A stretch of 64,000 nt of DNA from an uncultured Lachnospiraceae bacterium (lineage in GTDB: Bacteria > Bacillota > Clostridia > Lachnospirales > Lachnospiraceae): positions 165,888 through 229,887 of the forward strand of contig CAMRSM010000001.1 of the NCBI GenBank assembly GCA_947053345.1. The letters are read 5' to 3'. The notes below the pieces were generated by a model. It was not told the DNA's origin. It did no database searches and saw only the letters and a list, made by a program, of their open reading frames with translations. Of this stretch, positions 28,822 through 35,160 are shown piece by piece; position 1 is the first letter of the stretch, and each line of letters begins with the position of its first letter. Made by a program: the position numbers and the translations under genes.

Positions 28822-29124
28822 ATGGTGTTTGACAACCATGATGCCAGAATACGGTATTATAAGCTTTTGTTACAGAGGGATACGCTTTGCGATATCCCGG
28901 AATATAAGCTTCCGAAAGGTTACCGGTTCGTATATTATCAGGACGGTGACTTGGAGGACTGGATTGCCATCGAGCAGTCGGCAAAAGAGTTTGACAGCAG
29001 GGAGGAAGGGTATAGCGCGTGGGGGCGCTTTTACTTGGGGCGTGAAGAGGAGCTTTCTTCCCGGATGGTTTTTATCGAGGATATGGCGGGGAAGGCTGCT
29101 ACGTGTTTACCCCGAGTGACTTGA
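28822..29124 (+). pseudogene. 3'-truncated GNAT-like acetyltransferase at the left edge of the accessory island
   Basis: GYRFVYYQDGDLEDWIAIEQSAKEFDSREEGYSAWGRFYL...MVFIEDMAGKAAT, then out-of-family CLPRVT and stop. Confidence 0.65.
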
Positions 29125-29285: not shown

Positions 29286-29434
29286 TCTTGTTTTTGGGGG
29301 GAAGGCTTGTATGGCTGTCACACTGTTTATAGAGAGGCATTCTATAACACGGGGTGTGGCAGCCAGTGAGTGATCAAAGAAGGTAGAGTATGGATAGTGA
29401 ATTTATTAATAATATGCAGGAAGGAGTGTATGAT

Positions 29435-29668
29435 ATGAGAGGATACAAGGAACTTATGGGGAGATTTAGGGTTGCAACATCAGCCACCACTTGGGATCCT
29501 GTGCAGCGACAGTCTGTGCCGATAGATCCTGATGCATATGATGTGATACTGAATAAGGTCTGTAATGGGTATGCTTGCGAGATATATGAGGTTAAGAAGA
29601 ATGCGCCAGGACTTAGTGATTATGAACTTGCGCTTATATGTGATGAAGGGAATTTGTGTTTTGGGTAA
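29435..29668 (+). CDS. Small hypothetical protein sharing a motif with the N-terminus of the 31619-32425 ORF
   Basis: CEIYEVKKNAPGLSDYELALICDEGN compared with [26 protein letters not shown]. Confidence 0.5.
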   Translation: MRGYKELMGRFRVATSATTWDPVQRQSVPIDPDAYDVILNKVCNGYACEIYEVKKNAPGLSDYELALICDEGNLCFG

Positions 29669-29836
29669 GAGAACCGGGGCGGTAAGATTGTTGTCTATAT
29701 AGACTGAGTAATGTAGCAGTGAATGAACTTGCGTTGCATAAGGAGTTATGGTAGGATATGGGTGGGAGAATTACGTGTTGGTCAGAGTTCTGTCAGGTTA
29801 TTAAGTGGAATGGTAGTTATTACTTGGAGGTGTGTT

Positions 29837-30283
29837 GTGGCAATTAATGTGTATATTGGTAAAGAGAATCTTCCGAAAGAAAAAGTACTGGTATTTGATG
29901 TAGAGGCAGCAATTTTAGCAGTAAGGGTGATTGGGAGTGCATTCCAGAGAAAAGTATTGGCAGAGCTTGAACAAGGGGAATATAAGGATGGAAGGGTCTT
30001 TATTGATCGGTTTGGTAACCATTTATATTATACAGAGATGAGTGCTGGTTCAAAAGCCTTATTTGAATTGGAGGGATTACCTGACAAAGTGGTCAATGGT
30101 GCAGAAATGGGCTTTAATGCCCTGCGCTTTGTTGCAGAGATACCAGAATGCAGTATTTATTTTGCCCAGAGGGATGAGGCACTTCCTTTCCATGGCACAA
30201 AAACGGAGTTATATTTGAATGGGAAGCTTTATAAAGATTGCAGTCTGTTAAACCAGAAAATAGAAAGTGGGGGGCTTGAGTGA
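29837..30283 (+). CDS. Uncharacterised cassette protein 1 (VDVEAA...DRFG...EMSAGSKALFELEGLPDKVVNGAEMGFNAL)
   Basis: GTG start after cttggaggtg; overlaps the next gene by 4 nt. Confidence 0.6.
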   Translation: MAINVYIGKENLPKEKVLVFDVEAAILAVRVIGSAFQRKVLAELEQGEYKDGRVFIDRFGNHLYYTEMSAGSKALFELEGLPDKVVNGAEMGFNALRFVAEIPECSIYFAQRDEALPFHGTKTELYLNGKLYKDCSLLNQKIESGGLE

Positions 30284-30684
30284 AGATCGTAGTTGGCAGT
30301 ATGGTTATTAGCATAGAGTTGCCTTTTGGAATTCATGCAACAGAAGATGATTCTGCAATGGGAAAGACTTACTTGGCAAAGTTATTGCAGGCGGGCATGA
30401 TGGCAGGGGATGCAAATTATTTGGTGATTACTTATTTTGAGGGCATTACAACTGATTTTGTAATAAAACGCTTGAGGGAGAGAACTTATTTATTTATTAT
30501 GATGGATCGACTTGATTTGTATTTAAGTGATGGCATTGCAGATGCTTTGGTCGATATTCGCGAAAACACATGTATTTTTGTCGATTTGAAAAATTGGAAT
30601 CTGACCAAAGTATTCTGTCCAAATTTGGTTGATTTTGAGTTTACGGAAAGGGGAATCCGGCTGTATGAGGGTGATGATATTTGA
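30280..30684 (+). CDS. Uncharacterised cassette protein 2, small P-loop-like ATPase
   Basis: Degenerate Walker A EDDSAMGKTYLAKLL and Walker B-like YLFIMMDRLDLY. GTG start. Confidence 0.6.
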   Translation: MKIVVGSMVISIELPFGIHATEDDSAMGKTYLAKLLQAGMMAGDANYLVITYFEGITTDFVIKRLRERTYLFIMMDRLDLYLSDGIADALVDIRENTCIFVDLKNWNLTKVFCPNLVDFEFTERGIRLYEGDDI

Positions 30685-31381
30685 GGATGCAGAAAATGCA
30701 CCTATTAGTCAGATGATTGCAAGCGCTTACAAGAATCAGTCAGAGGTTATGTTGTACTTTACAGGTGGAAATTCTGTTCTTCGGGACAAGTTATGTGAGA
30801 TATATGATGCTGGGAACCAGTACATAGTTTATATTGATTTGGTTCCGGACAATTACACAACAATCAAGGAATATCGTATACTTAGAAAGATTATACGGAG
30901 AAGGAATTTTAAAAATGTTTATGTACTACCAATCATTTGTATAGAGTACTATGTAATGAAGACTTTTTTCCTAGAAACGCCAGCTATTGAGGTGGCAATA
31001 AAATGCGGAGATTATAGAGAATATGGGTCGCAGACTTCATTAGAGAGATACTGTAAGTTTGTGTTGAATACAGTGTATCCAGTATGTATGCATACAGATG
31101 ATGATCCAAATGTTAGATTTGGATGGTTTTATGTACAGGATTGTTTGTGCGTTGCACCAATGAAAGAATGCAATGGATTTAGTTTATTAGCTAAAGCAAA
31201 AGAACTAGTTAAAAAGTTGCCTGCATTTTACAGACCAAGCAGTTGGGCAGATAGTGAAACAAGGAGTGTGGATTTAGGGATTATACACAATAAACTGGTT
31301 GAAGAGTTTAAGAGGATAACAGATAGATATAATGTTTTAGGGCTGATTGATGCGGCTATAAAAGATTATAGAATTGAGTGA
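30665..31381 (+). CDS. Uncharacterised cassette protein 3, possibly TOPRIM/DUF4435-like
   Basis: MIFEDAENAPIS...YIVYIDLVPDN...VYVLPIICIEYYVMK. ATG overlaps the end of the previous gene. Confidence 0.6.
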   Translation: MRVMIFEDAENAPISQMIASAYKNQSEVMLYFTGGNSVLRDKLCEIYDAGNQYIVYIDLVPDNYTTIKEYRILRKIIRRRNFKNVYVLPIICIEYYVMKTFFLETPAIEVAIKCGDYREYGSQTSLERYCKFVLNTVYPVCMHTDDDPNVRFGWFYVQDCLCVAPMKECNGFSLLAKAKELVKKLPAFYRPSSWADSETRSVDLGIIHNKLVEEFKRITDRYNVLGLIDAAIKDYRIE

Positions 31382-31458: not shown

Positions 31459-31489
31459 AAAGTCCTAGTATTTGTACAGGGACTTTTTT
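31459..31489 (+). terminator. Rho-independent terminator of the three-gene cassette
   Basis: aaagtcct...agggactttttt. Confidence 0.7.
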
Positions 31490-31618: not shown

Positions 31619-32425
31619 TTGATGGTGTCCGGGATTATCGTATGTAGTGAGGGGTGGTTAGCAAGTTCACGGGAAGATGTATGCAAGATATACAGGGTCG
31701 TGAAAAATGTGCCTGGACTGGATGAGAAGAGCCTTGCGCTCCTTTGCTATGAAAGTAATGGAGGGTTTTATCCATACACGCGGGTACGTTGCAATAATGC
31801 TGGGTGCTGCCGACTGGACAGTTATTGGGTATGCCGTGAGGTTGTGTGTTCAGACAAACTGCCAGGAAACCCTCCTACCATGGAGGAAGTCGAGGCATTA
31901 CGTGCGGAGTACCCAGCGGGAACGCGAGTTGCATATGGTGCGGGTATGGTGCGTGCTGTTGAACCAACAGAAGGGAAAAGAAGACAGAGAGTGAAGAAAA
32001 TAAAAATTCAGTATTTGGACGATTCTATCGAGCGCCTGCGCTATATTGACGGGAAATCGGACTGGATTGACCTGCGGGCAGAGGAGGAAGTTGCGATGAA
32101 GGCGGGAGAATTTGCGCTGATTCCGCTCGGTGTGGCGATGCAGCTCCCAGAGGGCTACGAGGCGCATATCGTTCCACGGAGCAGCACGTTCAAAAATTTT
32201 GGCATCATTCAGACGAACCATACCGGGATCGTGGACAATTCCTACTGCGGTCCGAACGATTGGTGGTACATGGCAGCATACGCGCTGCGCGGTACAGTAA
32301 TCCACAAAAATGACCGTATCTGTCAGTTTAGGATCGTTGAAAATCAGCCTTTACTATCTTTTGAAGAGGTGGACAGGTTGGCTGGGGTGAACCGGGGTGG
32401 GATTGGAAGCACTGGAACACGGTAG
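31619..32425 (+). CDS. Chimeric ORF: mobile-element fragments fused to a complete-looking dUTPase
   Basis: C-terminal dUTPase: [26 protein letters not shown]...[36 protein letters not shown]...[10 protein letters not shown]-like tail. N-terminal [13 protein letters not shown] and [14 protein letters not shown] segments. Confidence 0.7.
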
Positions 32426-33099: not shown

Positions 33100-35160
33100 A
33101 TGCAGTGGGAGGGGTTTGATATGAATAATCCGAATACGCTAGTCGCACTTGCATACATAAAGACGAATGATAATCCGTTACTGGTTTTTTGCAATTATAT
33201 AATGAGTGTATTAGTCACTGCACCAGGCCGGTCCTTACGGAATGATGAGCTTTTGGATAAGCTAAAAGGAAAATTTGGGCTGGAAATGAAGCAGTCAATG
33301 ATCAATAACTGTATCTCCATCCTGAAGAAGAATGGGGAAGTCAAGTATTTACCAAGGTATGCAGGCTATGTGGTGGGCGAAACAGAATTTAATGTGGAAG
33401 AGTTTGAAGCGAATATGCGGAGGCTGCATGTACAGGAGGATGCAGTTATCGGATGTTTGGTGCAGTTCGTAAGGGAGAAGTACAACTTGTCGTGGGATAA
33501 TGATAAGGCAAAGAACGGCTTGTCTTTTTTCCTGAATGAACGTGGGAATGCCGCAAGGCTCTTTATGGATGAGGAAATTGATACAGAGGATAACAAGCTG
33601 AGCGAGTCATGGTATATTGGGAGATTTATTGATTATATCCAAGGGAGCGACCGGGTTGAAAAAGAGTATCTGGAAGATATCAATAATGGCTTGATGATAT
33701 ATCAGGGCATTTATCAGACGAACGATTACCAGCAGGATAAGAACCAAAAGTTTAGGGGGACGGTATTTTATTTTGATACTAAGATGATTCTGCGTCTTGT
33801 GGGTTATTCTGTTGAAATGCATGTGAGGGCAACGCAAGAACTTGCACAGCTGGTGAAAGATGAGTATGGTGGGAAGATTGGTATTTTTGACAAGACAGTG
33901 GAAGAGGTTGCACATGCCTTATATGTTGCAGGAAAATGTTATAAGGGGAAGAAACAGATTTTAAATCGGGAGCTTGCCATTTATGCAGAGAAAAATCCGA
34001 CAGGAGCCTCTTTTTTCTGTGAGGTCTCCCAAAGTATTGATAGTTTGCTGAAAAAGCATGGGATTGTACGTGAACCGGATATATCTTGGGAAGCGCAGGC
34101 ATACCATAAATATTGGCTGGAAACAGAGGCTGTCGAAAATTACATCAAGGACAAATTTCATTGGAGGGAAGGTGCGGTATCAAATGATGTCCAAGTGATT
34201 AACCAGATTAATATACTGAGGGCGGGGGATTATACCGTCCGATATGGTGGACGAAAGAAACTGCCGGTTTTTGTTACAACGAACACGCAGTTGGTATATA
34301 GCTTTAAGGAATATGTTGCAGAAGCCATGAGTGCCGACGATGAGTCTCGTTGGAATTTGCATGCCTTGCCTATAATTTCGGAAAATATGCTTGTTACCCG
34401 GTTATGGGTCCCATATGCGAAAAAGTATAGTGACCTGCCCGCGCTTACCTTGGCAAGGCAGGCTTATGCGGCGCAGAATCCGACAGCCGGCTTTTTTGAA
34501 AAGTTAAAAAGTGTAGCAGTTGAGTTTAAGAAGACGGAAAATATTGATATCCTTAACATTGATGAACTTAGAAAACAACAGCTTGAGGATATTCTGGTAG
34601 CGAAGACACGGGGTGATGTGGACGCGTTGACTATAGAGACGGTTGCATCGAGTGTTGAGGAACTTGTACAGATGCAGAACATTTCGTTGAAGGAGGAGGT
34701 TGCGGCAAGTCAGGAAACAATAAGATTAAAGGATGTCCGGTTGTCAGAAGCGGAGGAGGCTGTCATACGTCTGGCAGCTAAGCCATACGTAAATAGGTTG
34801 GGCTGGAGACGGATGCTGATATGGGCGGCAGAATATTGGTGGGTTCTAGCAACCTTGATTTTTCAGGTTGCGGCTTATTTTATTGGCAAGCCATTGGATA
34901 GCAAGTGGCCGCCACATTTGCTCGCTTTGCTTCCGGTGGTTGCGGAAGCTGCTTTGACAGTACTGGATAAGCATTTTGAAAAGAAGGAGTGGCATGAGTG
35001 TATTTTGCGCTGCGCTGTTAAGTATGTATGGCAATGGTACATGGCAAAAATAATGGAGGGCGTGCGGCAGGAGAAGGAGGTTTATCGTCCCCATGTCGTC
35101 CGTTATTGCCTTGAGGGTACACCGATATTTGCGGAACATAGGGAGTGGTGTGAATATTAA
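33100..35160 (+). CDS. Uncharacterised 686-aa protein: N-terminal HTH-like region, PIN-like nuclease domain, C-terminal two-TM region
   Basis: VFYFDTKMILRLVGYSVEM, IFDKTVEEVAHAL, PVFVTTNTQLVYSFKEY (PIN-like pattern); LIWAAEYWWVLATLIFQVAAYFIG and HLLALLPVVAEAALTVL hydrophobic segments. Strong RBS ggaggagg. Confidence 0.7.
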   Translation: MQWEGFDMNNPNTLVALAYIKTNDNPLLVFCNYIMSVLVTAPGRSLRNDELLDKLKGKFGLEMKQSMINNCISILKKNGEVKYLPRYAGYVVGETEFNVEEFEANMRRLHVQEDAVIGCLVQFVREKYNLSWDNDKAKNGLSFFLNERGNAARLFMDEEIDTEDNKLSESWYIGRFIDYIQGSDRVEKEYLEDINNGLMIYQGIYQTNDYQQDKNQKFRGTVFYFDTKMILRLVGYSVEMHVRATQELAQLVKDEYGGKIGIFDKTVEEVAHALYVAGKCYKGKKQILNRELAIYAEKNPTGASFFCEVSQSIDSLLKKHGIVREPDISWEAQAYHKYWLETEAVENYIKDKFHWREGAVSNDVQVINQINILRAGDYTVRYGGRKKLPVFVTTNTQLVYSFKEYVAEAMSADDESRWNLHALPIISENMLVTRLWVPYAKKYSDLPALTLARQAYAAQNPTAGFFEKLKSVAVEFKKTENIDILNIDELRKQQLEDILVAKTRGDVDALTIETVASSVEELVQMQNISLKEEVAASQETIRLKDVRLSEAEEAVIRLAAKPYVNRLGWRRMLIWAAEYWWVLATLIFQVAAYFIGKPLDSKWPPHLLALLPVVAEAALTVLDKHFEKKEWHECILRCAVKYVWQWYMAKIMEGVRQEKEVYRPHVVRYCLEGTPIFAEHREWCEY

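Follow-up and report, generated by a model that had tools for sequence, protein, structure and literature searches.

In the PARIS system, the ABC ATPase AriA sequesters the TOPRIM nuclease AriB and frees it upon sensing a phage protein such as Ocr, and the freed AriB cuts tRNA-Lys (PMC11455837, PMC12409363). OLD nucleases also act in anti-phage systems (PMC10568477), and OLD-ABC/TOPRIM modules serve as a recruited back-up layer at BREX loci (PMC12839542). BrxF, a small P-loop protein, has been described as a protein of the STAND/ORC-Cdc6 type (PMC12839542).

A locus of three overlapping genes from a Lachnospiraceae bacterium was compared with these systems. It lies within a window of 64,000 nucleotides, i.e., the whole stretch of DNA that was analysed, and an earlier note, made from the letters of this window, had proposed it as a candidate novel system.

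The three-gene locus and its surroundings

The features of the locus are the following.

29826..29830, + strand: ribosome-binding site GGAGG of gene 1, read from the sequence
29837..30283, + strand: gene 1, DUF4869-type, 148 aa, GTG start; proposed ABC-signature half, without Walker A
30038..30055, + strand: codons 68-73 of gene 1 (M-S-A-G-S-K), LSxGxK-like ABC signature, from conservation and alignment to ABC signatures
30280..30684, + strand: gene 2, small P-loop NTPase, 134 aa, GTG start; proposed Walker A/B half
30346..30369, + strand: Walker A of gene 2, codons 23-30 (D-D-S-A-M-G-K-T), first Gly missing
30505..30507, + strand: Walker B Asp of gene 2, codon 76
30665..31381, + strand: gene 3, TOPRIM-like, 238 aa, ATG start; proposed nuclease effector
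30683..30688, + strand: E7-D8 of gene 3, acidic pair after strand 1
30836..30853, + strand: D58 to N63 of gene 3, acidic motif after strand 3
30944..30946, + strand: E94 of gene 3 (ICIEYY; compare SFENYF in OLD-like TOPRIM proteins)
31459..31486, + strand: intrinsic terminator hairpin, then a T run (MFE -9.7 kcal/mol, z -2.4)

The gene layout was confirmed as it had been described, i.e., genes 1 and 2 share 4 nt at 30280, and genes 2 and 3 share 20 nt, with the ATG of gene 3 at 30665 lying inside gene 2. The three open reading frames are not due to chance, because dozens of other genomes contain all three families together. The terminator that had been placed at 31459 fits the hairpin and the T run found there; the hairpin was absent from the list of the terminator pattern scanner.

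The G+C content of the trio stretch was 0.39, compared with about 0.50-0.53 on either side. To the left of the trio lies a gene for a GNAT-like acetyltransferase (28822-29124), which is truncated near 29106, and the full protein of 217 aa is encoded in a congener (L122). The missing 3' half of the gene was not found within the window. The window copy was placed in an accessory stretch because the G+C content is low and because the acetyltransferase gene, which is broken here, is whole in the congener; the term accessory island used in the earlier note was thus a fair one. A dUTPase-like gene, the gene for a 686-aa protein and a two-component pair follow to the right. The 686-aa protein (33100-35160) is encoded in the same low-G+C stretch, had no confident Pfam match and is possibly the product of another conflict-type gene. 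A stretch of 29 aa (CEIYEVKKNAPGLSDYELALICDEGN, or a second version of it) was observed on both sides of the trio, at 29390-29668 and at 31619-32425; its second occurrence precedes the dUTPase domain, and a matching DNA repeat was not found. Direct or flanking repeats around the window trio were not convincing, RNA families were not found near it, and neither an integrase nor a conjugation gene was recognised among the examined neighbours of the window copy.

The three protein products

Product 1 had been likened to DUF4869-type proteins. The match to the Pfam model DUF4869 (PF16163) had an E-value of 0.006 and 16.9 bits, below the gathering cut-off of 28.9. Intermediate relatives of product 1 exceed this cut-off, and a profile as well as a tree join product 1 to them. 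Though the Pfam match alone was too low, profile, tree and gene partners agree with the proposed assignment, and judged by these product 1 is a protein of the DUF4869 kind.

A PDB search with the sequence of product 1 yielded nothing useful. The AlphaFold2 model, which was based on a 42-row alignment, had a pLDDT of 94.2 and a pTM of 0.88. When it was compared with the PDB using Foldseek, 48 of the best 50 entries were ABC-type ATPases by description, and the matches included ABCF1, condensin, MlaF, TAP, an SMC head, FtsE, EttA, the retron protein PtuA and the AriA-AriB complex; no single match was significant (best E 7.5e-3, TM 0.25-0.43). The family-conserved residues are S69 (66/67), G71 (67/67) and K73 (63/67), which belong to the LSxGxK-like motif. 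LSxGxK is the form that the ABC signature has in SMC, RecF and OLD ATPases. In an unguided profile-profile alignment this motif of product 1 fell on the signature of ABC transporters with a score of 22.7, which was reached by none of 150 column shuffles (mean 11.6, maximum 17.1). It also fell on the signature of OLD-like ATPases, in this case with a score of 19.6, and 3 of 150 shuffles were as high. After the motif, the model of product 1 continues with a helix, a strand, a helix, a strand, two strands and a helix, an order that, as read from the model, these elements would also have in the second half of an ABC domain. A Walker A motif is missing from product 1, and the Walker B-like strand of the protein has no acidic residues. 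The earlier view that the first component is unlike known ones was not borne out, as product 1 resembles that half of an ABC ATPase which bears the signature, and this likeness would also explain why product 2 is so small.

In the family of product 2 the motif GK[ST] was found in 59/59 proteins and the Walker B Asp in 57/57, and there is no signature motif. The residue after the Walker B Asp is Glu in the fused forms described below (IDEGN) and Asn or Arg in the three-gene forms. The profile of product 2 matched KaiC- and ABC-type P-loops in the PDB, and it aligned to the ABC Walker A (95%). With OLD-like ATPases it aligned locally at Walker A and, separately, at Walker B, and no alignment was obtained over the intervening >200 residues, which hold the signature. 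The first Gly of Walker A is missing not only from product 2 of the window, it is also missing in its clade mates L023, L090 and L117, and therefore its absence is a feature of the clade and not a sign of decay. Of the earlier description as a degenerate P-loop protein the second part was verified, while the first has to be revised: neither GK[ST] nor the Walker B Asp varies in the family, and the protein is not simply decayed. BrxF surfaced weakly in the searches and was set aside as a protein of the STAND/ORC-Cdc6 type (PMC12839542).

For product 3, the model was good for residues 1-100 only, and the C-terminal half was poorly modelled. The first 100 residues have the order b-a-b-a-b-a-b with four strands, a Rossmann-like fold that is not specific to TOPRIM. 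The fold search of the PDB retrieved only generic Rossmann folds, receivers among them, and the search of a viral library retrieved phage DNA primases among its matches, which were not significant. Product 3 had no Pfam match, its sequence search of the PDB gave nothing useful, and the P0003 query found no relatives in genome contigs, phages or plasmids.

In the sequence of product 3, E7-D8 lie after strand 1, D58 and N63 after strand 3, and E94 after strand 4; these residues are invariant or nearly so, e.g., the Glu after strand 1 was present in 31/31 proteins. A classic DxD after strand 3 is absent, and instead there is the motif D-x3-[D/N]-N (Asp 34/34, Asn 34/34). OLD-like proteins of the same bacterial family have a matching series, i.e., VEG..D / TNSCTN / RDSDG / YYSFENYFLDP, and product 3 aligned in register with the OLD-like TOPRIM, with 0/100 shuffles as high. 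The alignment to RecR was weak (1/60 shuffles as high), and no alignment to DnaG was obtained. Because the classic DxD is absent, product 3 was named TOPRIM-like; that it is a true TOPRIM nuclease we consider somewhat more likely than not. Of the earlier label TOPRIM/DUF4435, a TOPRIM/OLD-like nature is thus plausible, with membership in TOPRIM unproven as the DxD is missing, and the DUF4435 part had no match. DUF4435 was also rejected as a candidate in a direct comparison, in which the sole clear DUF4435 protein among 60 relatives did not align usefully. A receiver domain was tested too and is not favoured, since no alignment in register was found and the conserved Glu stands where receivers have Thr/Ser.

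Distribution, architectures and neighbouring genes

A P-loop gene was present directly downstream of the gene in 57 of the 68 distinct DUF4869-type proteins, often overlapping it, and the co-occurrence of the trio in other genomes, which had been set beforehand as a check, was thereby verified. The gene for product 3 lies on either side of the DUF4869/P-loop pair or is fused to that for product 2. A tblastn search with product 3 found 12 of 200 genomes of the family Lachnospiraceae, and the flanks mostly revealed the same trio. The product 3 profile matched 32/346 genomes of the family, and the Pfam DUF4869 model matched 38/200. The latter matched 0/300 genomes from across the phylum, of which only four belong to the family of the window, and the product 1 profile had no match outside the family in a class-wide sample. 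Matches of the product 3 profile were found in two genomes from other families of the order. The module is thus common in the family of the window and rare elsewhere.

Four architectures were observed. In the first, which is that of the window, the order is DUF4869, P-loop and TOPRIM-like, and in the second it is TOPRIM-like, DUF4869 and P-loop. In the third, DUF4869 comes before a protein of about 320 aa in which the P-loop and TOPRIM-like parts are fused (P-loop::TOPRIM-like); this fused protein is the usual partner of canonical Pfam DUF4869. In the fourth (L072) the fused protein comes first and DUF4869 second. With hhalign, the fused proteins proved homologous to product 3 in their C-terminal part (probability 95.6%, E 1e-8). 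A natural fusion of products 1 and 2 was not seen. According to the tree of product 1, fused and TOPRIM-first forms are each confined to one side of a branch with moderate support (82/79 and 82/76), and the window falls into a clade of four members with L117, L023 and L090 (98/97).

Broken or decayed copies were common and scattered. In L182 (8654-9160) and L114 (1306-1782), the start of DUF4869 is joined to a TOPRIM-like tail and the P-loop gene is lost, and these deletion remnants represent recurrent decay of the module. An unusual expansion was observed in genome G111 (L017-L020, L063, L066, L074, L075, L079), which has 13 DUF4869 matches belonging to several clades and architectures.

Defence genes were found near 6 of 20 trio loci and near 1 of 20 control regions from the same genomes, when three genes on each side were counted (p = 0.046, one-sided); this enrichment is borderline and partly post hoc, as the count was made after the loci had been seen, and the same kind of neighbour, TOTE, was counted at two of the six loci. 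The single positive control was a CRISPR I-C locus. BREX-type PglX/PglZ genes lie near the trio in L177, and in L171 the pair sits between hsdS and hsdR in a type I R-M operon. L181 (6654-11075, G927:C6) is a dense defence island, in which the trio lies between a pair of ThsB-type TIR and DUF1883-TIR genes and an AbiE pair. An AbiL-type ATPase is encoded beside the decayed copy in L182, and TOTE primase-helicases were found in L165 and, as a remnant judged by sequence likeness, in L173. Many copies of the module adjoin housekeeping genes.

Plasmids of Agathobacter rectalis, Ruminococcus albus and Collinsella aerofaciens also carry the DUF4869 pair, with the partner of DUF4869 annotated as a hypothetical protein, and the conjugative plasmid pRUMAL02 of Ruminococcus albus has the pair at three places. 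DUF4869 matches are present in unannotated gut phage records, and a query with canonical DUF4869 had no match in viral contigs.

Two further loci have unusual neighbours. In L100 (1-2211, G976:C53) an ABC-transporter gene stops just past its D-loop, and its reading frame continues into the TOPRIM-like gene of the trio, which suggests that this cassette arrived inside or beside the ABC-transporter gene; a clear orthologue of the transporter, sought in congeners for an empty site, was not found. In L183 (2276-5155, G188:C23) a 959-aa protein without a Pfam or PADLOC match is encoded directly upstream of the trio, and we take its N-terminus to read like a DUF4062-type sensor.

Proposed function of the module and comparison with known systems

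On balance, and with hardly more than even confidence, we favour the view that the cassette is a compact conflict module of the OLD/PARIS style, in which an ABC ATPase is split over two polypeptides and combined with a TOPRIM-like protein. The best-supported parts are the module itself and the ABC nature of DUF4869. The computations established the three families with their linkage, the ABC-like fold of product 1, the sequence motifs and the architectures with fused or rearranged genes. Even chances are given to a further claim, according to which DUF4869 would be a free-standing ABC signature subunit that acts in trans on a separate mini P-loop ATPase, and the module would be an immune switch of a split-ABC kind that differs from OLD, Gabija and PARIS and occurs widely in gut Clostridia. 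Product 2 would be the ATP-binding core with its Walker A and B motifs, and product 1 would contribute the helix with the LSxGxK signature and, behind it, a unit that resembles the C-terminal half of an ABC domain. The two proteins may assemble to a complex with ATPase activity, in which the signature of product 1 would close in trans over the ATP held by product 2. This ATP-dependent switch would hold or release product 3. A cue from infection may act as the trigger, i.e., disturb the ATPase and free product 3, which, as a putative metal-dependent TOPRIM-like nuclease, would cut host tRNA or DNA and thereby stop phage growth. A role in defence is suggested by the genomic context and by analogy.

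The same split ABC ATPase could also be part of a toxin-antitoxin or addiction unit, in which product 3 is neutralised by the other two products and is set free once the module is lost. The small overlapping genes, the many scattered and decayed copies and the carriage on plasmids, including the three places on pRUMAL02, would agree with this, and PARIS itself acts like a toxin-antitoxin pair (PMC11455837). However, defence genes adjoin 6 of the 20 loci, and an ATP-driven switch of two proteins exceeds the needs of a simple antitoxin, so that we regard an addiction unit as fairly unlikely. A second alternative is that the likeness of product 1 to an ABC half is superficial and that the trio is another P-loop/Rossmann signalling unit, e.g., with product 3 as a receiver-like or nucleotide-binding regulator. 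It fits that each fold match of product 1 has an E-value above 0.001, that receivers and generic Rossmann folds are among the fold matches of product 3, and that product 3 lacks the DxD. Yet 48 of the 50 fold matches of product 1 belong to one superfamily, its signature residues are invariant, the shuffle tests agree, and product 3 is not in register with receivers and has a Glu in place of their Thr/Ser; a signalling unit without an ABC part is therefore considered unlikely. It is quite improbable that the cassette is a passenger or helper of mobile elements that serves gene maintenance or integration and has no role in defence: the window copy does lie in a stretch of low G+C content that is bordered by a truncated gene, and the G976 cassette (L100) does follow a broken ABC-transporter reading frame, but the module was not seen to have an integrase, transposase or conjugation gene as a constant companion, flanking repeats are absent at the window copy, and copies within a single genome are diverged and not identical.

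Searches with Pfam, NCBIfam, PADLOC and PHROGs returned nothing specific for the window proteins, and the trio is present in no defence catalogue searched, in agreement with its proposal as a candidate novel system. A literature search, outside whose reach lay most subscription papers and preprints, retrieved no mention of DUF4869 or PF16163 and no paper on a "split ABC ATPase". If the preferred reading, i.e., a split ABC ATPase in a conflict module, is true, DUF4869, with up to 13 matches in one genome, would gain a concrete structural role, and a minimal OLD/PARIS-like system would be added to the known defence repertoire. The module would also represent a natural experiment, in which the two faces of the ATP sandwich lie on different proteins and can be separately mutated, mixed and swapped. 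The restraint and release of the nuclease by ABC-TOPRIM immune switches would then be directly testable with proteins of <240 residues.

Among the known proteins, SMC and Rad50 resemble the module in the LSxGxK signature, in the presence of SMC and condensin heads among the fold matches, and in the large distance between Walker A and signature in the sequence. They differ in that a single chain contains both halves, with the catalytic Walker B located in the signature half, whereas in the module Walker B stays with Walker A. OLD and the Gabija protein GajA have the ABC ATPase and the TOPRIM domain in one chain, in contrast to the three genes of the window. The two-gene form of the module is closer to them, because it joins the P-loop and TOPRIM-like domains in one chain, and OLD-like proteins of the same bacterial family match the module in the SFE motif and in the order of the acidic residues. 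However, OLD and GajA have 550-700 aa, while the fused chain has about 320 aa and lacks the signature lobe, which is on DUF4869. Canonical DUF4869 (PF16163) with its hypothetical partner of 320 aa has the same product 1 family and the same P-loop and TOPRIM-like parts, but there the latter two are fused and the proteins form a separate clade, while those of the window are unfused.

Like the trio, PARIS has an ABC-type ATPase and a TOPRIM-like partner encoded by separate genes, and AriA was among the fold matches of product 1. PARIS-like modules have been recruited to BREX/R-M loci (PMC12839542), and the same is true for some of the trios. In contrast to the trio, in which the ABC part consists of two proteins of <150 aa, AriA is one full-chain ABC ATPase of the OLD type. 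In addition, AriB is a DUF4435 TOPRIM nuclease, whereas product 3 has no DxD and no PADLOC or Pfam match to AriB/DUF4435; the PADLOC models for AriA and AriB did not call the trio and gave only weak P-loop matches to the AriA models. Taken together, the module was rated as belonging among the ABC-TOPRIM conflict systems rather than as a categorically new system.
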